IMG/VR virus record: IMGVR_UViG_3300020179_000025
Span: 1 to 64,000 of that record
Length of the DNA stretch: 64,000 nucleotides
From: a virus
Reading direction: 5' to 3' (one strand)
Shown here: in pieces, positions 2,413 to 37,636 of the stretch
How positions within the stretch are numbered: the stretch's first letter is position 1
Layout: every line of letters starts with the position of its first letter
Translations under genes and position numbers: made by a program
Notes under the pieces: model-generated
Seen by the model: only the letters and a program-made list of their open reading frames with translations
What the model was told of the DNA's origin: nothing
Databases searched by the model: none

Positions 2413-3351
2413 ATGTCTGGAATTATAGGAACTGAATGGCTGAACTCTAATTTGCTGAGAAACTATCCTCTCAGCCAGTCTGCCACATTAAAATCAATAG
2501 ATAGTTCGTTTGTCATTCCCGATAGCCTTATGGTAGATATGAAAATCGCCATACCGTTTTTAGCTAACTTTCACCCAACAAATGTCTACGTTAGCGCCAT
2601 AACCATATACCCGCAGGGACTTATAATTCAGTTAGGGTATAAAGACATTACCTCTATCGCTGTATCAGATCCTATTCTTTTCTCGGGATTTCAAGAATAT
2701 TCAGCCACTTATTTCAGAGGAGTGGTAAGCGGATTGGCAGACTTTTCTCAACTTTTTGGTACAGCTATTATTGGAAAAGTAGATTCCATAAAATCCTATC
2801 TTGGCACGTTTAAATTCGAATTGGAGGCAGGGAGATTAGAATCATCCGTAGTATCAGTTGGAGCCAAAAGAATAAGTGGAATCAAGGTAGTAAAGTCTGA
2901 GGCAACTACTCCGGTGCTCTCCGGACAAATTGCTTTTGAGAGCGGCTCAAACCACTCAATTCAGGTAGATGAAAACACCTTGAAGTTTAATGCAGTAGAC
3001 GGAGGAGGGCTGCAGACACAGTGTGAGTGCAACGACGTACAGCTAGGACCGTGTATACGCACGATAAATAATGTTGAAGGCGATTCTTTGGGTAACATAG
3101 TGGTAGCCGCCGGAGACTGCATATCAATAGCCAGTCAAATAGGCGGAATATCTATATCCGATTCATGCGCAAAACCTTGCTGTGGCTGTAACGAACTGCA
3201 AGTCGTAGTCACCGATGTCGAGTCGCTATCTACTCAACTATCTTTTCTTGCTAATCAAATAGCTATACTGACCAGTAGTGTTCAGTCGCTGCAGGCTACT
3301 TGCCTGGCATCAAATGTAGATTCGTCAAGTTGCGCTCAAGACGGAAACTAA
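2413..3351 (+). CDS. Structural protein, paralogous array member 1
   Basis: This 312-aa protein starts with a strong AGGAGG site before ATG. Near the N-terminus it has NSNLLRNYPLSQSATL (about residues 11-26), which recurs in clear form in the gene at 7965 and in weaker form at 6409 and 8840. Near residue 216 it has INNVEGDSLGNIVV, a version of the ING-x-x-P-D-x-x-G-N-I element found in phage tail fibre and baseplate proteins. A C-x-x-x-CCGC cysteine cluster follows, then a C-terminal heptad-like segment (SLSTQLSFLANQIAIL) that looks like a trimerising coiled coil. A virion role, probably at the tail tip or baseplate, is inferred from these elements and the context. The next gene starts 2 bases after the stop. 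Confidence 0.7.
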   Translation: MSGIIGTEWLNSNLLRNYPLSQSATLKSIDSSFVIPDSLMVDMKIAIPFLANFHPTNVYVSAITIYPQGLIIQLGYKDITSIAVSDPILFSGFQEYSATYFRGVVSGLADFSQLFGTAIIGKVDSIKSYLGTFKFELEAGRLESSVVSVGAKRISGIKVVKSEATTPVLSGQIAFESGSNHSIQVDENTLKFNAVDGGGLQTQCECNDVQLGPCIRTINNVEGDSLGNIVVAAGDCISIASQIGGISISDSCAKPCCGCNELQVVVTDVESLSTQLSFLANQIAILTSSVQSLQATCLASNVDSSSCAQDGN

Positions 3352-3352
3352 A

Positions 3353-6300
3353 ATGCGCATAGATAATTATAATAGTACCAAACACGATATTTATACGTTT
3401 GATGAGACCTACCTGAGACTCATTAGCTGGGGGTTTGGCTCAGGTCCCATAATCCCTTGCGTTACAACAGAGTATTCGTCTTATGTAAATTCCAGCGGTC
3501 AGACAATTCCAATTCCTCCCGGGGGGCCACTTCCTGATGGATTCATATTTAGACAGCACGCTCCAGTAATTGGGTATAACCCCGGAATGGTCTCTTTCCT
3601 GCAGTCAAGGGGAGTTGACGTACCTGATTTCAGCGGACTGCATGTTAGAAATAGAGGGTCAAATCTCAATAGGTTTGCGTTCAGATCTGATAGCGGCTTC
3701 ATACAGGGTGAACCTTTCTGGATCCTTGCCGATAATGGAAACATTCAGAATCCGACTAACGGAATGTATGCCGAAAATCCTATTTTTAATCCCCTTGATC
3801 ACAACAATTGGAACAATGGGGTGCCGCCATTCTGCATGGTGTCTCCGAAGCACTTTCTTGGATGTAACCACTTTGTAGGACCTGAAAATAATACAAATCA
3901 AACTATACGACTTTTAAAAAAAAATGGTGACATAGTTAATAGGGAAGGTCAATTCATATCTAGATATGAGGATGCTAATTTATATAGACTGCTAATTCCA
4001 CTTACTGAGGAAGAGCAACAACAAATTAATTGCTACGATATAGTTGACTTTAGAACTATTCCCCCTGAAGTAAAAATTTGGAGACAAGATTCAAACGGTA
4101 AATATTTAGTATATACTGTTACTCAAGGTAGCAGTTACTATTCGTCGTCTGGTTTCTCTGGATATTCGCCTATATTATATAGGCCATATCAAGACCATTC
4201 TGGAGAATTTCCAGTTCCCTGGAACCCGCCAAATACACCTTCATGGTATTCAGGTTTAGGTTTTGTTTGGAATGGTGACAGCGGAAGCCCGCTACTGCTT
4301 ACTGCAAATGGAAAAACTTATTTATATGGCTTTAGTAATGGCATTATTGACTCCTTTGCCAAAAATACTCCGCAAACTGATTGGCTATTAGGAGCGTTGG
4401 AGCAAGACGGGGTGGTAAAAAAGCTTGTAAATGCTGAAGAAGGTGGCCAGCTTATTAAATTACCTACAGCCTATAAGGCTGGATTTTTAGAGGAAGCAGA
4501 ATCTAGCGGTCTTCCATTTATAGTTAAAAATCCAAATGGAAATCCCGCTATAGTAAGTGTAAAACTTTCTGGAGAGTACAACGTATACCCCGGAGAACAG
4601 GTTTATCTTAACGACATAGAGATATCTAGTATCTTTAACACTTCAATAGATACGTCTTCTACTGAAGAAGGTTTGGTCTTTTATATACTTACATGCAACG
4701 TATACGCTGGCGATAGATTATTGATAAGTAAATCAGACTTTCAATCATCAGGAGCTTACACGGCAAAGATTGTAAATATTGGAAAATACAATCACCTTCA
4801 ACTGAATATAGACGAAGGAAGGCTGGCATTGACAATAGTGTTTTTAAGTGTGCCGACGCTTGTTGATTTTAGTCCAACAGATAACTTTCCGCTATCTCCC
4901 TTTTGCCTGGAACCTTACACTGGACAGGTATCGCTAAATTTACAAGATCGCAATATATCTACAGGATTGTTAACTTTTTCTTCAGGATACAACTATCAAT
5001 TAGATTATAAATCTGAAAATTTCACAGCAGTGAATTTTGCCGTATCAATAGGGGCTGGAGAGGGGCTGCAGCCTTGCGAAGATCTTATAGACGTACCTGG
5101 CTACCTTAGATCTATAAATGGAGTATCGCCAAACGATAGGGGCGATATAAAGTTGCAAGCCCCTTCGGAAGATTGTGTCAGTGTTGATACGGGGTACTCT
5201 GCTACGTCAGGAGGCAAAATAAAACTTGATTCTCACTGCGCCCCTTGCTGCAGATGCACCGACTATGAGAATTCATCGGACTACATAAAAGGCGTAGCGG
5301 TAAAGTACAGCGAGCTCGTAAAGCAATATAACGCTCTTGTATCCATTTACAATAATATTCAAACTAATTTTGAAGATAGTTTACGCTCCTGTCCAACTCA
5401 AGGAAAGCTGAATTCCAGATTTAGAATGTGGCCTCAGCAGAACTTTAAAGTTCAAGTGCAGGCCATGGTAGAAAATAATACTAATACGCCAACGATAATC
5501 AAGAAACTTAAACTTGAGTTAAGTTTAAGCCTTTACAATCCAATATCGGCGGTAGATCCGGAAACAAATGCTACGTATCAGATGGATGAAAATGATTCTG
5601 TGGCCGCAGTACCGCTTGAGGATGCGTCGTATTTGTACTACAAGAATCTGAATCCAGTATCGCAGGGCTTCACATTTAGCGTACCGAACTCTGGATCACT
5701 TAAATTCGAGGCCGATTTGACTCAATCTGGAATGCCTGTTCCTGGCGGACCCCCAGGGCAAAGTCCTTATATAACTCCGCCATGTAGCGGGTATGCCATG
5801 ATAACTGGTGGCTTTGTTATAGTTGATCCTCTGTTTAGAAAGATAGTATCGCTTAATTACAGATCAGGACTTAACATAAAATTAAATATACTATTTAAAT
5901 ACACTGGAACGGCTCAAGATGAGGATCCATGTAATAATCCGGACGAAGCGGAACATTTGCTAGTTCCAGCGGGAGGAGTGGAAAAGTCCATAACAATACG
6001 GCCTAATAAAAGTTCGGTTAATCCATGCGATTCAATACAGCCTAGCACAATAGCTCAATCTGTAAATGAAGAAAATAATATTTTATTTAATTTAAACTTA
6101 CCTCAAGTAACCTATGGTACCGGCCAGGTAACGATCACCTATAAATCCTTGACAGATGCAGGCTGGCAAGAGTTTTCCTCGTCTACTGTTAATATAAGTA
6201 CCGGAAACGCAGGAACTCAGACAATTTCTTTAGGAGGCCTTCCAGAGAACTTAGGAAGTGGAAATCACCAGGTATTGATATCCTATGTACCTGAAGCTGG

Positions 6301-6400
6301 TGCTAGGCTGTACACAAAGTGCGTGAGATCAGACGATTCAAATGATGTGGCGGAAATACCTGTAGCTCCATTTCAGGTAGGCAAAGCCTTTAATTTGTAA
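3353..6400 (+). CDS. Virion protein with embedded chymotrypsin-like (S1) serine protease domain
   Basis: This is a 1015-aa protein. Residues about 155-335 read as a trypsin/chymotrypsin-fold protease. SPKHFLGCNHF (H173) aligns with the usual S-P-x-H-x-L-T-A-A-H-C around the catalytic His. EDANLYRLLIPL (D207) is in the place of the catalytic Asp. NGDSGSPLLL (S310) carries the canonical GDSGSP nucleophile motif and is followed by YLYGFSNGI. Spacing H-34-D-103-S fits the family. Downstream, around residue 586, comes LRSINGVSPNDRGDIKL, then CAPCCRC and a coiled-coil-like helix, as in its upstream neighbour. The protein is therefore a paralogous virion protein carrying a protease. It could cleave host surface proteins or process virion parts. 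The domain call is strong; the target is unknown. Confidence 0.75.
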   Translation: MRIDNYNSTKHDIYTFDETYLRLISWGFGSGPIIPCVTTEYSSYVNSSGQTIPIPPGGPLPDGFIFRQHAPVIGYNPGMVSFLQSRGVDVPDFSGLHVRNRGSNLNRFAFRSDSGFIQGEPFWILADNGNIQNPTNGMYAENPIFNPLDHNNWNNGVPPFCMVSPKHFLGCNHFVGPENNTNQTIRLLKKNGDIVNREGQFISRYEDANLYRLLIPLTEEEQQQINCYDIVDFRTIPPEVKIWRQDSNGKYLVYTVTQGSSYYSSSGFSGYSPILYRPYQDHSGEFPVPWNPPNTPSWYSGLGFVWNGDSGSPLLLTANGKTYLYGFSNGIIDSFAKNTPQTDWLLGALEQDGVVKKLVNAEEGGQLIKLPTAYKAGFLEEAESSGLPFIVKNPNGNPAIVSVKLSGEYNVYPGEQVYLNDIEISSIFNTSIDTSSTEEGLVFYILTCNVYAGDRLLISKSDFQSSGAYTAKIVNIGKYNHLQLNIDEGRLALTIVFLSVPTLVDFSPTDNFPLSPFCLEPYTGQVSLNLQDRNISTGLLTFSSGYNYQLDYKSENFTAVNFAVSIGAGEGLQPCEDLIDVPGYLRSINGVSPNDRGDIKLQAPSEDCVSVDTGYSATSGGKIKLDSHCAPCCRCTDYENSSDYIKGVAVKYSELVKQYNALVSIYNNIQTNFEDSLRSCPTQGKLNSRFRMWPQQNFKVQVQAMVENNTNTPTIIKKLKLELSLSLYNPISAVDPETNATYQMDENDSVAAVPLEDASYLYYKNLNPVSQGFTFSVPNSGSLKFEADLTQSGMPVPGGPPGQSPYITPPCSGYAMITGGFVIVDPLFRKIVSLNYRSGLNIKLNILFKYTGTAQDEDPCNNPDEAEHLLVPAGGVEKSITIRPNKSSVNPCDSIQPSTIAQSVNEENNILFNLNLPQVTYGTGQVTITYKSLTDAGWQEFSSSTVNISTGNAGTQTISLGGLPENLGSGNHQVLISYVPEAGARLYTKCVRSDDSNDVAEIPVAPFQVGKAFNL

Positions 6401-6408
6401 GGAATCAT

Positions 6409-7968
6409 ATGAGAGTAGTAACCAGAGATTTTCTAAACGATAACGAGTTTAAATCGTATCCTATAGATATAAGGGCTACCTACGAGCCCTATTACTCTAC
6501 TGATAAAGTCTCCAGCATAAATTGTCTCCTTACGGATATGTCTATAACTATTCCGGAAAGTGCAGCGGCTTGCATATTTATAGCAAACATTTCAATAACC
6601 CGATCTCTAATATCTATGACTATAATGGGATCTAAGTCTCATCCCTTTTCCGATAATGCGCCGGATGCCGACGACTACTCCTTGGAGTACTCCATGCTTG
6701 GATCCTACGTTGTCGCCACTGTAGAAACTCGTAGACAAACAAATATGAATGGGGTTACCGTTGCTATATCTCCAAAAATTCCAGGAGTCGGTGGATGGAT
6801 AACCTTTGGATCTGGGGCCTCTAAGGAAGGCGTTTGGATATTTCAAGGGCCTAGCAGTTCTATGATTTCAGATTTTTGCATAACCAAATACTCCTATGGA
6901 GGTGTGACCACTATTGGAAGATTGGGGTATGACACAGTTTTGGATGGCAGAGTCGAAATGACTGGGCAAAACGGAATTGAAATACAGCCGGATTCCGATA
7001 AGAATGAAATAATAATACGGTTCTCTGGAACATCCAACGAAATAAAACAATCCTTGAGACAATATTCAGGTGCATGTGGCGGCAGACCTGAATCTGAAAC
7101 GTGCAGTTTCAGCCCCATAAAAACTATAAATGGGATAAGACCAGAAGGATTAAATTCTGAGATAGTGCTGGTATTGGATCGTCCACTTTATGCAACCATA
7201 ACTAACCAGCAGACTGAAAGAGAGAATTTCAAGATATCCTCGGATATTCCATTGGAATCTTTCTGCAAGGGCAGAATATCCATACCTGAAAGTTGTGCCT
7301 CCTCTCAAAGTCTTACAAATATTTTAAAGCAGGCATTCAACGAGACTACAAGTCAGATAGTCCCCGATCCATCCATAAAATTGGTATTTGAGGTTCATAG
7401 CACAGGGGCACATGTCTTTACTATATTCAATTATAGCCATCAAAATCCATTGAATGCAGGACAAGCCATATTCAAGTCTAATGGCAGCGTCAATGTGTTG
7501 GGGGAGTCGCTGAATGAGTTGGTTATTGACATGGCTCTTGGAGAGTGGCAAATGTATGGGGTGTCCGGAGTAAGCATGACTTTATTCGGATCCCTACTGA
7601 ATAATCTAAGAGCTTTCAAAGAAATTACATATCAGGGGATTACATATCAGGTGTATATTGGCATAGCTACGGTCTATGATCTGCAGGAAGTGTATGCCGT
7701 GGATGTAATTATATCTGCCCCAGACTCATTTGAGGAGGCTGGAAAATATGTTCGTATAGCACATTCTAGATATGTGCATTCAAATAATCCAGAATACTCC
7801 CTTGAATTGAGAGGAACTGGAAATTCTTGGATACTGTCTAAAAATGGAATGTTGTTAGGGGCTGGAACGCTAGATGACCAAGGATTCGATTCTAAAGTTC
7901 AGTCATACGTTCGTACCAATGGCGAGTCTGCGATAAGAAGTTTGGCTATTAGGAAGGCTGCAGAATGA
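6409..7968 (+). CDS. Structural protein, paralogous array member 3
   Basis: This 519-aa protein follows a GGA-containing ribosome site (AAGGAATCAT before ATG). The N-terminus DFLNDNEFKSYPIDIRATY is a divergent form of the N-x-x-x-x-x-YP element shared across this array. PIKTINGIRPEGLNSEIVL lies near residue 237 and is the ING-type element of tail fibre and baseplate proteins. The remainder is beta-rich with no enzymatic motif seen. Its stop overlaps the next start (ATGA). Operon position and shared elements support a virion role; the exact part is unknown. Confidence 0.65.
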   Translation: MRVVTRDFLNDNEFKSYPIDIRATYEPYYSTDKVSSINCLLTDMSITIPESAAACIFIANISITRSLISMTIMGSKSHPFSDNAPDADDYSLEYSMLGSYVVATVETRRQTNMNGVTVAISPKIPGVGGWITFGSGASKEGVWIFQGPSSSMISDFCITKYSYGGVTTIGRLGYDTVLDGRVEMTGQNGIEIQPDSDKNEIIIRFSGTSNEIKQSLRQYSGACGGRPESETCSFSPIKTINGIRPEGLNSEIVLVLDRPLYATITNQQTERENFKISSDIPLESFCKGRISIPESCASSQSLTNILKQAFNETTSQIVPDPSIKLVFEVHSTGAHVFTIFNYSHQNPLNAGQAIFKSNGSVNVLGESLNELVIDMALGEWQMYGVSGVSMTLFGSLLNNLRAFKEITYQGITYQVYIGIATVYDLQEVYAVDVIISAPDSFEEAGKYVRIAHSRYVHSNNPEYSLELRGTGNSWILSKNGMLLGAGTLDDQGFDSKVQSYVRTNGESAIRSLAIRKAAE

Positions 7969-8840
7969 ATTCATTAAATAACTTAGGGTGGAGAAACCTT
8001 AATTCAATGAGGAATTACCCTTTCACCGATTCCTCAACTTTATCTATGAATAGTTTATTTCTGCCCCAAACATGGATACTGGATGCTAGAGTTTATTGCA
8101 ACAACTCTTATGAAGCAACGGAGACTCCATATATATCTAAGATTATAAAGACAGAGCTATTAATATCATTAGTTATATCTTCATCAAATGGCGAAGAGAT
8201 CGGAGAAGCCAAAGTATTCTTAAATAAGACTGATGACTCAATTAAAATCGCAGATTCAAAAGGATTTACAAATGGATGTATAGTTATAGATCCAAATAGT
8301 ACAGCTTTGGCTCAAGCCTTGCCTGATGGTGAAACCGAATTAGTTCCATCAGTAGCTAGATTTTTACCACATGTATGTCAATACTTGCCAGGTCCGCAAG
8401 TTCAAAGTATAAATGGAAAACATGGAAATATTGAATTAGTAGCAGAAGTTGGAGTAAAGCTTACTGCTGTTTCACATGAGAGCAGCTCATCCACCGAACA
8501 TACGAGCACTATAAGAATAGATTTGATAGGAGATCCTCATTTTACTAGATATAACTGTATAACAGGCGCAAACGATCAGACAGATGACATATTTGAGTTA
8601 AGTTCAAGATTTTTGAAGAGATTAAAAGTTTTGCATTATGTAAAAAGTCCAAGTACCGGACAAATTACTGGGCCGTATAAAAGTTCGCTAAAGAGGAAAA
8701 AGAACGGATCGATAATGCTGGCTCTATCCACTCCATTGAGCGATCCTAGCGGTACTACTGTTGAAATAAGAGAAGCAAGACCTTCTTTTAGAATTCAAGT
8801 ATCAGATAACAAAATAACTCTAAATTTAGCAGGTGCATAA
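7965..8840 (+). CDS. Structural protein, paralogous array member 4
   Basis: This 291-aa protein has the clearest repeat of the array N-terminus: LNSMRNYPFTDSSTL (about residues 11-26), very close to the gene at 2413. A shortened ING element, QSINGKHGNIELV, lies near residue 147. The C-terminal part is rich in Ser, Lys and beta-forming residues. It is coupled at both ends: its start overlaps the previous stop (ATGA) and its stop overlaps the next start (TAATG). Probably a tail or baseplate component; no enzymatic motif seen. Confidence 0.65.
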   Translation: MNSLNNLGWRNLNSMRNYPFTDSSTLSMNSLFLPQTWILDARVYCNNSYEATETPYISKIIKTELLISLVISSSNGEEIGEAKVFLNKTDDSIKIADSKGFTNGCIVIDPNSTALAQALPDGETELVPSVARFLPHVCQYLPGPQVQSINGKHGNIELVAEVGVKLTAVSHESSSSTEHTSTIRIDLIGDPHFTRYNCITGANDQTDDIFELSSRFLKRLKVLHYVKSPSTGQITGPYKSSLKRKKNGSIMLALSTPLSDPSGTTVEIREARPSFRIQVSDNKITLNLAGA

Positions 8841-9811
8841 TGTATGAATATTTTAAGACAGTAAGCTATCCATTAAAGGAATTTAACTCGGATTACTTTT
8901 CGGAGAATCAAAATGATGCTATAAAATCTACGATAGTAGATTTTGGCATCAATATATACGGTTTATCGCCAGAACTTGAAAATCTTATAATTGGGACACC
9001 TAGGATATTTTTAACAGAAATTGGATCCTCCGACTCCTATTCTTTAATACTTAAATTACAATTAATGATAACAATCGACGACTTAGACTTCTCTTTAGCT
9101 GGCGGGGACTTATCAGTTTCTACAGATACTCACCCAGCAAATGAAGAATTTATTAGAGTTTATTTTGATAGTGAGGACTTTGAATCGCCCGGCTTTATTA
9201 TTGATGGATTTCTGTGCTTAAATAATTACTCAAAATTAATTAGAGTATTAGATGGAACAATCTTTAATCCTCCAAATATGGAATTTGAGCCTACAACTAT
9301 AAATTTCTTTTCTAGGCATAGGGTAAATAGTATAACTTGTAAAAACTCAAAGCCTCTAATAATGCAAAAAGCTAATGAGCTGATACACCAACCTCCACAG
9401 GATCCGGTATTTGGAGATATAAAGCTAGTGCCCGGAAATAATTGCACTATATCTGTGCGACCTCAAACTAATACAGTAATTATAGGGGCAGTTTTAAATG
9501 CTAATGACACCCCCGAAGAAATCTGCGGAGTGTGGAAAGATAAAATTTCAGGTACAGGTTCAAAAGATTTACTTTGTAGTGAAGTTGTGTATTCTATAGC
9601 TGGCGCAAAGCCAGATAATTTTGGCAATATTGAAATACAGGCAAATACGCCTCTTAGTGTTAACGCTTTAGTAAAAGATGATTTACCAACTCCATTTAAA
9701 ACTTTTATAAACGGATCTAGTTCAGAGTTTTCCCCTATAATACACTATATATACATAGGGCTCCCCCAATCTAATGGGAATTCAAGTGTATTTGATTGTC
9801 AAACGGAGTAA
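8840..9811 (+). CDS. Structural protein, paralogous array member 5
   Basis: This 323-aa protein begins KTVSYPLKEFNSDYFS, the weakest version of the array's YP element, and carries YSIAGAKPDNFGNIEI near residue 252, which matches the ING-x-x-P-D-x-x-G-N-I tail element with A for N. An N-terminal acidic, beta-rich domain precedes it. It starts on the TAATG overlap with the previous gene. The shared element and placement support a virion role; part unknown. Confidence 0.6.
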   Translation: MYEYFKTVSYPLKEFNSDYFSENQNDAIKSTIVDFGINIYGLSPELENLIIGTPRIFLTEIGSSDSYSLILKLQLMITIDDLDFSLAGGDLSVSTDTHPANEEFIRVYFDSEDFESPGFIIDGFLCLNNYSKLIRVLDGTIFNPPNMEFEPTTINFFSRHRVNSITCKNSKPLIMQKANELIHQPPQDPVFGDIKLVPGNNCTISVRPQTNTVIIGAVLNANDTPEEICGVWKDKISGTGSKDLLCSEVVYSIAGAKPDNFGNIEIQANTPLSVNALVKDDLPTPFKTFINGSSSEFSPIIHYIYIGLPQSNGNSSVFDCQTE

Positions 9812-12151: not shown

Positions 12152-13185
12152 TGTCGACCAATCCAGCTATACCTTGTTGCTGCATAAGTCCTAAATTTGT
12201 ATGCTGCAAAACATACGCTGTAGCTTTAACTTGCCCTGTGGAACAGATAGGGGATGATTGCGATGTAATTTCAGGGGTTCCTCCAGAAGTTAAATGCGAG
12301 TATGAATATAAAATAGTTTCATGTGTGGATAGTGAGGAGGAGTGTGTATGTGAGGAAATATCTGAACAAGAGGTGACAGGTACTGGAGGATTCGGCAGCG
12401 GTGGCGGCGGCGGTGGAATGGGCGGTAGCTCTGGAGGCCTCCCACCAGGACATACAATATCTGCATGCATATCAGCTGTATTTCATAATATAAAGTGTGA
12501 AAATAATCAACCTCCTAACGACAGGGAGATTTGCAAGAACGACAAAAATAGACCGTGTTGCAAAAAAGAATGCGGCCCGTGTGGACCTATGGCCGCCGGA
12601 TGCGCAGATGACTGCCCTCCTCCAAATTGCGAAGAACAGGAGTGTTGTGAGCCTCCGCCTCCTACGCTATGCTGCTGCTCTACTATTGAAGGGGGCGAAT
12701 GCTCAGTTAAAACTTGCGGTCCATGCCCTCCTGATCCCATTCCTCCAAACTGTTATCAGGTCCCTGCCTGCGATCAGTGTACAGATGGGCCAGATGACTG
12801 TACTTTTTACCAATCAGCCTTATGTTGTCCAACCGAGTTCTGCTGTTGCAACCCGGAGGCGACCTGCGACTGCTGCGACGGCAGCATCCCTGCCTGCTGC
12901 GAATGCGAGGAGCCCGGCTGCGTGCGTTTCAAGTGCATATGTCCGTGTGGTTCAGGCCCACCGTCAGGTCCGCCTCTTTGTATGGGATGTGGTCAACCTA
13001 CGGCAAACCCAGCGGGTTGTTTGGCGTTGGGGCTCCAGACCGAAATGCAACATCCCGGAAATAAATTTGAGGATAACTTTGGTACCTTCGTAGAAAACAG
13101 TATTGAGAAGGGATTGATAAAAACTAAGACTGATGTTAAGCTGAACACCTTGTTTCTATTTGGCTATGGATATAAAAATCTATGA
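12151..13185 (+). CDS. Extremely cysteine-rich protein
   Basis: This 344-aa protein has about 51 cysteines, clustered in runs such as CCC, CCxC and CPPxC between residues 8 and 290, with much Pro and Gly. A GGFGSGGGGGGMGG linker (about residues 79-92) separates an N-terminal cysteine region from a larger one. The last 55 residues lack cysteine and end in an ordinary helical and aromatic tail (LFLFGYGYKNL). No signal peptide is seen. ATG 12151 is chosen over GTG 12148 because it overlaps the previous stop as TGATG. It may be a disulfide-rich or metal-binding virion surface protein; it resembles no family I can name. That it is a gene is supported by full-length openness and coupling on both sides. 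Confidence 0.65.
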   Translation: MSTNPAIPCCCISPKFVCCKTYAVALTCPVEQIGDDCDVISGVPPEVKCEYEYKIVSCVDSEEECVCEEISEQEVTGTGGFGSGGGGGGMGGSSGGLPPGHTISACISAVFHNIKCENNQPPNDREICKNDKNRPCCKKECGPCGPMAAGCADDCPPPNCEEQECCEPPPPTLCCCSTIEGGECSVKTCGPCPPDPIPPNCYQVPACDQCTDGPDDCTFYQSALCCPTEFCCCNPEATCDCCDGSIPACCECEEPGCVRFKCICPCGSGPPSGPPLCMGCGQPTANPAGCLALGLQTEMQHPGNKFEDNFGTFVENSIEKGLIKTKTDVKLNTLFLFGYGYKNL

Positions 13186-14114
13186 GAGCAATTCATTCAT
13201 ATAAGTTTGATAAGTTAAGACCGCTATTAGAATCTATTGGCGGGGCGTCAGTGGTAAAGCCAATTATAACCATGATGGCGCTTTCGGCAGTCAGTATACG
13301 CAAACATCATGATGACTTTGTCCTGATTACAGACGATATTGGAGCTGAACTTGCTAAAGCATGTAGTTTGCCTTACTCAAAGGTCGTTTCAGTTGGTTAT
13401 GAGTTTGGTTCGCACGAATGTTTCTGGATTCACAGTAAGCTGCACACCTACGCAACAATAGATTGCCCATTTGTTCACTACGATATCGATTTATTTTTGT
13501 GGGATCCGCTTCCAAAAGAATTTTTAGATAACGATATATTTAACTTTTACTCAGAGGCCCACGTTTGGCCTAGATATGAACAGATCCTTGAAAATTTCAT
13601 TGCCTCAGGTGTAAAGGTTCCACTTTACGATAAACTATACCCTGAGAATAAATCTCCATTAAATATGGCGATATTTGGAGGGCACGACATAAAAACCATT
13701 AAATCCTGTGGTCAAGAACTTTTAGATTTAATGGAAACTAATGATAGATTTTATAACAAGTCAGATGAGATAGTATACGCAATAGAAAATGGAATTTCCT
13801 ATATAGAACAAGCGCTAAGTTCTTACATACTTCAGAGCAAACATAGAAAAAGAGTAGTGCCACTTCTAAAAGAGCATCAGGTATTATCCGGAAAAACCGT
13901 TCCAGGGATTAAGGTAACGCACTTGCACTCCTTGAAACAAGTAGCACAAGCCCAAGGAAAAATTAATGAATTACAAGCAAAACTTGACAGTAAGTTGAAA
14001 TATCTGGCTCCAGACGTACACTCTGCCGTAGCAAAGTTTACTAAAGTTAAAGTTAATATAGATGACATGATAAAGGAGGCAAACTTAAATGATTCGAATC
14101 TCACCAATAAATAA
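13182..14114 (+). CDS. Glycosyltransferase-like (GT-A-type) protein
   Basis: This 310-aa protein has a central HYDIDLFLWDPLP (D101-x-D103). This resembles the metal-binding DxD of GT-A sugar-nucleotide transferases, set after a Rossmann-like N-terminal half (FVLITDD near residue 46). NMAIFGGHD follows near residue 168. The layout is like the DUF6734 group of glycosyltransferase-like proteins, from memory. The last 60 residues are helical and charged. Its start overlaps the stop of the cysteine-rich gene. It could glycosylate a virion protein or host surface polymer; substrate and activity are unproven. Confidence 0.5.
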   Translation: MRAIHSYKFDKLRPLLESIGGASVVKPIITMMALSAVSIRKHHDDFVLITDDIGAELAKACSLPYSKVVSVGYEFGSHECFWIHSKLHTYATIDCPFVHYDIDLFLWDPLPKEFLDNDIFNFYSEAHVWPRYEQILENFIASGVKVPLYDKLYPENKSPLNMAIFGGHDIKTIKSCGQELLDLMETNDRFYNKSDEIVYAIENGISYIEQALSSYILQSKHRKRVVPLLKEHQVLSGKTVPGIKVTHLHSLKQVAQAQGKINELQAKLDSKLKYLAPDVHSAVAKFTKVKVNIDDMIKEANLNDSNLTNK

Positions 14115-34721: not shown

Positions 34722-34777
34722 GCAAAGATAAATTGTGAAATCTAGATAGGACGCCAAAATTAAACATTGGAGTGACA

Positions 34778-37636
34778 ATGCCAGTAGAAATAGTAGATAA
34801 AGACATAGAGACGTATGGAAACGTCGTTATTAAGGTTGCCAAAGAGCGCAGTCAGAGCGTCGCATATACAGCTACGGACATACTAAATAAAGTATATGAG
34901 ACAACCAAAACTGGAGAAACGGGCATAACCTCACCTATGATTATATTGCCCGGCATCCATCTGGACTCTGTAGGCACCGATAAGTATGCAAACGTAGGTC
35001 CAAGTTACAAAAAAATCATGATGGTTGGATCGTGGCCCAACTCCATAGAGGAAAAAGAGAAAAGGCTTTTTCATGGAGACTGGACGATTGAATTCAAGGA
35101 TTTGATGTCTAAAACCGGATTAAATATAAACGACGTGTACCTTACCACCTTTGTTAAGACTCACGTTCACGGTAAGAAGACGACTATTCCAAAAGATCTG
35201 ATTGAAGACTATATGCCAATGTTCAAGAAGGAGTTGGAGCTGGTTAAGCCGGATCTTCTGATCATCCTGGGCGCTAAGGTTCTCAAGGCTCTATTTGGCG
35301 CAAAAGCGACAATGGAGCAATACAAAAACAGGACACTGACGGCGGAGGAAAGTCCGCTCAGCGTAAAAACCACTGCAATAACCGACTTTTCGGCCGTGCT
35401 GCACGTTCCGGAAATGAGGGGCGGCTTGGAAATGGAACTTACCAGAATCGCTGAAGAACTGAATTCCAACACTACTCAAATCGTGGACGATGTGCACATA
35501 TCGTACACCTACTGCTATAGCTTAGATCATCTGGAGAACAGCCTCAAAACAATTGAATCAGAGTACTCCGGGTGGGTTTCTGTGGATTGCGAGTGGGGAG
35601 GCAGAAACCACGTTGACGGAGAACTCAGATGTATTCAATTCAGCTGGACTCCCGGCAAGGCCCTTGTTATCGTGTTCAATCATGCTGGCATGACTCCTAC
35701 CCAACTTGGATGCAACAAAGTTGAAGCGTGGAAGCTGATAAAGAAATTTATTGAGAATGGAAGAACCAGGTTAGTGGGCCACTTTATTAGGGCAGACTTG
35801 CCCTGGATGGTATCCAACGGAGTAGACGTCACCCTATCAGTGTTGTTTGGTTGGGATACAGCTCTTGCCGGCCATCTGCTCAATGAGAATTGGGCACAGG
35901 GTTTGGAGGTGTACACATCTAGGCATACGAAGATGGGCAGATATGAGCTGGCCTTGAATAATTGGATTAAGAATAACAAGTATGATGTTGATGTGCATAG
36001 CTACGGAGGCATACCTGACGATATTTTGTTCGAGTATGCGGCTAAAGATGCCGATGTCACGTTTAGAATATTTCAGACGCAAAATCATGAGATGAATCTT
36101 AAAGAAAATATTAAGATCAAATCTTTGTTTGAGACAGTGGTTATGCCGGCAACAATGCCTATTCTTGAGATGGAGATGACTGGTATGGGCGTCGATGTGC
36201 AAAGACTGGAACTTTTGTCTCAAAAATACTCTGAAAAACGCAGAGAGCTGGTCGACCGTCTGAAGGAAATGTTAAATTGGTCGGACTTTAATCCTGACTC
36301 TTCAATTCAAAAGGCGGCAGCGCTTTTTGGATGGATAAAGCCTGGAGCCAAGACTAATCCCCCTAGCACAGCTACTCTAAAAAGATTTGAGCCTATCAAA
36401 GCTACAAACGAAAAAAAGTGGTCGGATGTTATAAAGAACCCTGAAACAATCGAAAGCTATACACCGTCCACTGAACGTGCTGTAATCCAGGAGTTATTGC
36501 TATCTCACAAGGATGACGAATTCTTAAACACCATGCTGCTGTATACAGCTGTTTCTCAAACAGTTAAAACTTTCTGTGGATCGTTTGTGGTTGCAGAAGA
36601 TGGATCCCACTTCATAGAAGGCGGAATTCTTCCAAAGTTATGGTCGGACGGTAGAACCCATACTAAAATTAGACAGACGGTAGAAACTGGACGATATGGA
36701 CACTCTGATCCAAATATGGCCCAGCTGCCAAAGACTGCAGAAGATTTAGTAGGACGTGCTTTTAAAGATACTGGAAAGAAAATTCCATCTATAAGATCTT
36801 GCTTCCGTGCAGATCCAGGCTGGGCATTATTGGATTGCGATTGGGTTCAAGCTGAGCTGTTCGTCATGGCTTGGCTTAGCAAAGATGGAAATATGCAACA
36901 AAAGTTAAACGATCCAGGCTCGGACTTCCACTCTGAAGTTGCTATAGACATGTTTCGTTTGCCAAAGCCACCGGCGGACTATTCAAAGGGACTTAAGGAG
37001 TGGCTAAAAGAATCAGGTAACGGAAAGTATAGAACCATTGCGAAAACTATTACATTTGGAATTGCGTATGGTCGTGGTGCAGCTGCAATTCGTCAAGCAG
37101 TATATATGGAAGGAATTAATATCACAGTGGAGGAGGCTCAAGACTCTGTTGACAAGTTTAAAGAGACTTTTCCAAACCTTGCATATTGGTTAGAGCTGCA
37201 ACAGGCTTGCGTAGGCGATAATACGCAAGGATATGTAGAAAATGGCTTTGGCCGTAAAAGAAGGTTTGACAAAACCAAAGACAAAGAGCTCATATCGCAT
37301 CAAAAGAGACAGGCTATGAACGCGCCCATTCAGGGAACTGTTGGCGACTTAATGTCGTTGGCCTTGGTCAATTTGTTCTTAATCAGAAATGAAGAAAGGC
37401 CGCATCTCAAATATAAGATAATCATGAGCGTTCACGACCAAGTTATAGTAACTTGCCCAGTAAGTCAGGTAGAAGAAACTTTAGAAGTAATAAAAATCGC
37501 AATGTGCGATAGGTGCAGAATTCCAGGAAATGATCTTCTGCTAAATATAGATCCAGAAGTATGCATTCGATGGGGAGAGCCCTTGACAGATGAAGATGTA
37601 ACACAGTATCCTGTTTTATCCAAGTACAAAAAGTAA
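34778..37636 (+). CDS. DNA polymerase I-type with N-terminal uracil-DNA-glycosylase-like domain
   Basis: This 952-aa replicative polymerase has three domains. Residues about 60-240 look like a family 4/5-type UDG fold (IMMVGSWPNSIEEKE, VYLTTFVKTH, LELVKPDLLIILGAK). Then a 3'-5' exonuclease with VSVDCEWGG (D270, E272) and YAAKDADVT. Then a PolA palm and fingers: motif A LLDCDWVQAE (D686), motif B TIAKTITFGIAYGRG, motif C MSVHDQVIV (D887, with Q where most PolA have E). No 5'-3' exonuclease is seen. ATG 34778 has GGAG upstream and is preferred over GTG 34772. Polymerases with such a UDG-like head are known from some large phages (SPO1 type, from memory). Confidence 0.85.
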   Translation: MPVEIVDKDIETYGNVVIKVAKERSQSVAYTATDILNKVYETTKTGETGITSPMIILPGIHLDSVGTDKYANVGPSYKKIMMVGSWPNSIEEKEKRLFHGDWTIEFKDLMSKTGLNINDVYLTTFVKTHVHGKKTTIPKDLIEDYMPMFKKELELVKPDLLIILGAKVLKALFGAKATMEQYKNRTLTAEESPLSVKTTAITDFSAVLHVPEMRGGLEMELTRIAEELNSNTTQIVDDVHISYTYCYSLDHLENSLKTIESEYSGWVSVDCEWGGRNHVDGELRCIQFSWTPGKALVIVFNHAGMTPTQLGCNKVEAWKLIKKFIENGRTRLVGHFIRADLPWMVSNGVDVTLSVLFGWDTALAGHLLNENWAQGLEVYTSRHTKMGRYELALNNWIKNNKYDVDVHSYGGIPDDILFEYAAKDADVTFRIFQTQNHEMNLKENIKIKSLFETVVMPATMPILEMEMTGMGVDVQRLELLSQKYSEKRRELVDRLKEMLNWSDFNPDSSIQKAAALFGWIKPGAKTNPPSTATLKRFEPIKATNEKKWSDVIKNPETIESYTPSTERAVIQELLLSHKDDEFLNTMLLYTAVSQTVKTFCGSFVVAEDGSHFIEGGILPKLWSDGRTHTKIRQTVETGRYGHSDPNMAQLPKTAEDLVGRAFKDTGKKIPSIRSCFRADPGWALLDCDWVQAELFVMAWLSKDGNMQQKLNDPGSDFHSEVAIDMFRLPKPPADYSKGLKEWLKESGNGKYRTIAKTITFGIAYGRGAAAIRQAVYMEGINITVEEAQDSVDKFKETFPNLAYWLELQQACVGDNTQGYVENGFGRKRRFDKTKDKELISHQKRQAMNAPIQGTVGDLMSLALVNLFLIRNEERPHLKYKIIMSVHDQVIVTCPVSQVEETLEVIKIAMCDRCRIPGNDLLLNIDPEVCIRWGEPLTDEDVTQYPVLSKYKK

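Follow-up and report, generated by a model that had tools for sequence, protein, structure and literature searches.

Known phage tail-borne enzymes mostly target sugars or peptidoglycan. Tail-borne peptidases of the NlpC/P60 and YHYH classes are on record for jumbo phages (PMC7824862, a survey from which the word "trypsin" is absent), and phage trypsin-like proteases are on record as stand-alone proteins, given as a gene-content item for cluster N phages of Alphaproteobacteria in the available part of PMC10783043. In the open-access literature, our searches turned up neither a phage tail protein described as containing a trypsin-like or chymotrypsin-fold domain nor any account of dockerin proteases from phages. 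Here we describe a gene of an uncultured freshwater bacterial virus in which a predicted protease of this kind is joined to a putative tail protein. The window (i.e., the whole stretch of 64,000 nucleotides analyzed) carries this gene as a single intact frame of 1015 codons, and the same ORF is open in two near-identical assemblies, G001 and the 111-kb record G002, which share 99.8-99.9% identity with the window across 10.5 kb. The features of the gene are as follows:

3353..6400, + strand: 1015-aa gene, predicted N-terminal chymotrypsin-like protease plus tail/baseplate-module protein (ORF; a second fused homologue, L116, is known)
3353..4450, + strand: protease region, residues 1 to ~365, core ~150-335 (alignments; AF2 and Foldseek)
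3488..3613, + strand: variable N-terminal insertion, ~residues 46-87 (SNP comparison)
3869..3871, + strand: H173 codon CAC, predicted catalytic His in SPKHFLGCNHF (invariant in 18 aligned sequences; His-region alignment with trypsin TAGH)
3971..3973, + strand: D207 codon GAT, predicted catalytic Asp in EDANLYRLL (the family's invariant Asp column once L116 is included)
4280..4282, + strand: S310 codon AGC, predicted nucleophile in NGDSGSPLLL (invariant in 18 aligned sequences)
4454..6397, + strand: tail-protein part, whose orthologue in sister phages is a 643-654-aa protein free of the protease (alignment; their start MSPTKYAAGFLEE corresponds to ~residue 370 on)

The original prediction had placed a protease domain at residues 155-335, with a triad of H173, D207 and S310. 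All three residues are present at these places and in S1-like order, and the core of the domain was correctly located, but the homologous unit is larger and takes in the whole N-terminus (residues 1 to ~365, nt 3353-~4450). This region is homologous along its length to stand-alone phage proteases, with a common start at the NYN..HDI motif. Comparison with IMGVR_UViG_3300020183_000121 over 10.5 kb revealed 21 SNPs, 10 of which fall within the 126 bases of the N-terminal insertion (3488-3613), a cluster that may represent a local recombination or diversifying patch.

Evidence for an active site comes from the conservation of its residues. By chance, a protein with this composition would contain a GDSG[ST]P motif ~0.0004 times. 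More tellingly, the His, Asp and Ser are invariant in 18 out of 18 aligned phage proteins (including the window protein and L116) at identities down to ~28%, and GDSG is likewise invariant across the protease family. The assignment of the Asp depended on sampling: a MAFFT alignment without L116 paired the family Asp with Y211 rather than D207, and adding L116 (GDLNLY) moved D207 into that column. For the stand-alone proteins, dN/dS was ~0.05-0.1 in most pairs, i.e., these proteases are under purifying selection. The "trypsin-type" label originally proposed holds for the triad and the fold (from alignments and models), but not for the expected specificity: at S310-6, the position of trypsin Asp189 (Ser195-6), the window protein has F304 and its relatives in the 18-protein alignment have residues such as A, V, N and Q, with no Asp at this position in any of them, and trypsin-like cleavage after Lys/Arg is therefore not expected.

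Structure predictions agree with the two-barrel chymotrypsin fold anticipated for this domain, with low confidence for the window protein and high confidence for a relative. The AF2 model of window residues 1-372 is of low confidence (pLDDT 52, pTM 0.56), and every one of its 37 Foldseek PDB matches at E<=1e-3 is a protease of chymotrypsin fold, including Deg, MamO, HtrA, norovirus NS6 and matriptase. The model of a stand-alone relative, from the sister phage G022, is good (pLDDT 83, pTM 0.81) and had 270 PDB matches at E<=1e-3, with S1-type folds for 50/50 among the matches listed; its TM-scores mark it as a distant member of the chymotrypsin-type folds. TM-scores are modest overall (~0.4-0.5 on the target side). 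Structure matches in BFVD were likewise mostly PA-clan proteases. Taken together, the alignments and models support a serine protease domain of chymotrypsin fold whose predicted catalytic residues are conserved.

Sequence libraries were less informative. Searches of the whole 1015-aa protein against Pfam, PHROGs, NCBIfam and PDB sequences returned nothing in the protease region, so the case rests on relatives from IMG/VR. Since neither PF00089 nor PF13365 matched the window protein or its place in G002, we refer to the domain as S1-like rather than filing it in Pfam Trypsin, a model that matches one relative weakly in the Ser region (E 0.005, below cut-off). Weak CBM_6 and BamC matches at residues ~917-960 were dismissed as chance. 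A tblastn of the full protein and of one stand-alone relative against 50,697 annotated phage records gave no match, and two scans of 84,980 species genomes, which required conserved short words and could thus miss distant cellular homologues, gave no cellular relative. With hhalign, the His region of the family is matched to the TAGH of a canonical trypsin that this virus also encodes. This second trypsin (L102:6322-7062, G002:106322-107062; Pfam Trypsin_2, E 8e-13) has a lipoprotein-like N-terminus and lies ~1.2 kb past the window end by G002 coordinates.

The fused gene sits among further genes of the tail module, including:

2413..3351, + strand: neighboring paralogous tail protein, 312 aa (~29% identical to residues ~535-690 of the fused protein)
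6409..9811, + strand: three further module genes (519, 291 and 323 aa) with NYPx / INGxxGxI motifs (ORFs)

The paralogous family of tail proteins that had been claimed here was recovered between the 312-aa neighbor and the C-terminal half of the fused protein (E ~1e-8), and the 291-aa protein is also weakly related to the 312-aa one. In G002, a Baseplate_J gene (PF04865; phrog_6, baseplate wedge) is found on the same strand ~1.6 kb before the window start, which places the fused gene a few genes downstream of it and among other tail-module proteins. The entire tail module is colinear in G022 and in the 129-kb record G035. Given the nearby Baseplate_J, the paralogous neighbor and the colinear module, the fused protein likely has a contractile-tail baseplate or fiber role. 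The baseplate module also contains a sigma-70-like factor gene (phrog_351, PF04539; L047:5989-7011, G002:35989-37011), and a DUF6734 protein (PF20508, E 4.6e-29; window 13182-14114) closes the tail module. Elsewhere, the window encodes a family A DNA polymerase (34772-37636) with an N-terminal uracil-DNA glycosylase domain (PF03167, E 7e-10) and a 3'-5' exonuclease; a tRNA search of the window found none.

The same architecture was found once more: L116 (G035) encodes a 965-aa protease-tail protein in the corresponding syntenic position. Identity to the window protein is 41% in the protease half and 30% in the tail half, so that the protease is the more strongly conserved of the two parts. The syntenic tail gene of four phages (G005, G009, G022 and G023) matches only residues 368-1010 of the window protein, and in G005, G009, G022 and L110 the orthologue of the tail part comes without a protease. 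The protease domain is therefore a module, which has been gained or lost as such. A protease domain embedded in a tail protein was thus correctly foreseen for the window; that related phages mostly encode it as a stand-alone, dockerin-bearing protein was not.

Indeed, ~25-30 viral loci in IMG/VR encode stand-alone relatives of 350-365 aa, almost all of which carry a type I dockerin at the C-terminus (lost in a single exception, L069). These share a common start (MA[IV]LKNYN..HDI) and the motifs SP.HALIC.H, D..L and GDSG[ST]P. Relatives of the terminase led to sister phages of the window virus, and in one of these (G022, 174.6 kb) the protease is encoded by a separate gene (P0002, 365 aa) whose product is 28% identical to the window protein over residues 151-330 (E 9e-15) and has a type I dockerin at its end (PF00404, E 1.4e-6). 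PF00404 is above its cut-off in several family members, and the GC-type dockerin NF041540 in one (P0002). A search for the dockerin in the window protein and in G000/G002 found none. As the G022 gene is 70 kb away from the tail genes, a tail role is argued for the fused form only. G002 lacks a counterpart of the initial 53 kb of G022, where the G022 dockerin protease sits, and the window phage may therefore possess an additional, unassembled stand-alone copy. Both forms co-occur in G035, which has a stand-alone dockerin protease near its fused L116.

Potential partners for these dockerins were detected in two lineages. A G028 protein (L138:1345-2463) has two cohesin stretches (Pfam Cohesin, E 2.4e-8), and G022 encodes a cohesin-like protein with a signal peptide (L042:16079-17329, G022:46079-47329), 40% identical to that of G028, just downstream of its dockerin protease gene. 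Among the other dockerin-protease phages, no comparably clear cohesin-like gene was seen outside the G022 species and G028; a third phage (L157) has a cohesin-like gene with no dockerin protease detected in the part of its genome examined, and neither cohesin nor dockerin was found in the window's own record. These observations hint that phages may attach the protease through a cohesin-dockerin pair, a link that the tail fusion would replace with a covalent one, and we treat this as a lead rather than a result. It is tempting to speculate further that these phages mount the serine protease on the virion, or else on the surface of the infected cell, by means of a cohesin-dockerin pair of their own, and that the window lineage instead fused it to a baseplate-region tail protein, a scenario we consider doubtful. 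The presence of a dockerin-bearing family and of a cohesin-like protein in two lineages also raises the question of whether phages assemble enzymes on virions like cellulosomes. Two other proteins of these phages are of note here. A 297-aa tail-fiber-like protein (L147, G025:52783-52860) has a dockerin-like motif, GDLNGDGSVNGADLGILLNSW, which suggests that docking modules may occur in virion proteins of this phage group. A 247-aa protein of G028 (L138:253-996) has the C-terminal APTPGAIALLGLAGLFGRRRR, a PEP-CTERM-like sorting tail whose NCBIfam match is below cut-off; together with the GC-type dockerins, this hints at a planctomycete-like host.

Our favored interpretation, to which we give an even chance of being correct, is that residues 1 to ~365 form a divergent PA-clan S1-like endopeptidase, carried in the virion of a large contractile-tailed phage through a tail part from the distal tail/baseplate module, that would cut a host-surface protein at adsorption. 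The tail part would build the predicted protease into the virion, which upon adsorption would cut an S-layer, pilus, matrix or other coat protein, and this cut would open access to the envelope. The dockerin of the stand-alone form would attach the enzyme non-covalently to a cohesin-bearing partner, and the fusion would presumably do the same job in the window lineage. We favor a surface-cutting tail endopeptidase because it agrees with where the gene lies, with its joining to a structural protein and with the conservation of the active site. If correct, a tail-fused chymotrypsin-fold protease would imply that a protein layer is a barrier or receptor of the host.

Three other roles for the domain remain, listed here from the most to the least probable. 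The N-terminal protease might cut its own tail protein or its neighbors during assembly, and so release a tail part of the 643-654-aa type: phages commonly use proteases in virion maturation, and the two parts of the fused protein meet at the point where the orthologues without a protease begin (MSPTKYAAGF / MALRKYAAGF vs. LPTAYKAGF). However, sister phages with the same module do without a protease there, the joints of the two fused proteins are unconserved upstream of YxAGF, and G035 carries the stand-alone as well as the fused enzyme, so that we regard self-processing as unlikely. Slightly less probable still is a released or intracellular effector that, like the stand-alone relatives, would target host proteins in the course of infection or once the cell has lysed, the tail fusion serving as packaging only. 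The stand-alone relatives have no obvious signal peptide and occupy variable gene neighborhoods, as expected for accessory genes, and these phages encode further trypsins (lipoprotein-type in G002, Trypsin_2 in G028); against this reading stands the fusion at one syntenic tail locus in two distant phages (the window virus and G035), with the tail part complete.

S1 folds without catalysis exist and serve as scaffolds, and some are among our structural matches (the HGF beta chain and the Umb1 particle, for the G022 stand-alone model). An inactive domain that serves for binding or as a scaffold is nevertheless improbable when the catalytic residues and GDSG are invariant in the family down to ~28% identity and the stand-alone forms are under purifying selection. 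Finally, the two genes being apart in sister phages could evoke an assembly chimera, i.e., an erroneous join of separate protease and tail genes, but the same fusion occurs in three near-identical records and again in the distant 129-kb record, with a protease identity of 41%. This distant fused homologue rules out a chimera, to which we attach a negligible probability.

How, then, does this predicted tail-fused endopeptidase compare to known systems? Broadly speaking, it resembles the MEROPS S1 / PA-clan peptidases (trypsin, chymotrypsin, HtrA/Deg, MamO) in its His-Asp-Ser order, approximate spacing, GDSG motif and predicted fold, and differs from them in lacking a Pfam-level match, an Asp at S310-6 and a recognized zymogen motif, as well as in its N-terminal extension with a conserved HDI motif and its association with a tail fusion or dockerin. 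It shares with the cluster N proteases (PMC10783043) a phage-encoded, trypsin-like nature; the available part of that source describes no tail fusion. The NlpC/P60 and YHYH virion peptidases (PMC7824862) are likewise envelope-breaching hydrolases carried by the tail, but their known or predicted substrate is peptidoglycan. Lastly, the window protein has no dockerin, and its stand-alone relatives recall the cohesin-dockerin anchored enzymes (NF041540) through their type I dockerin and the two-cohesin protein of G028, with the difference that they are phage-encoded and that the enzyme is a protease rather than a glycoside hydrolase.
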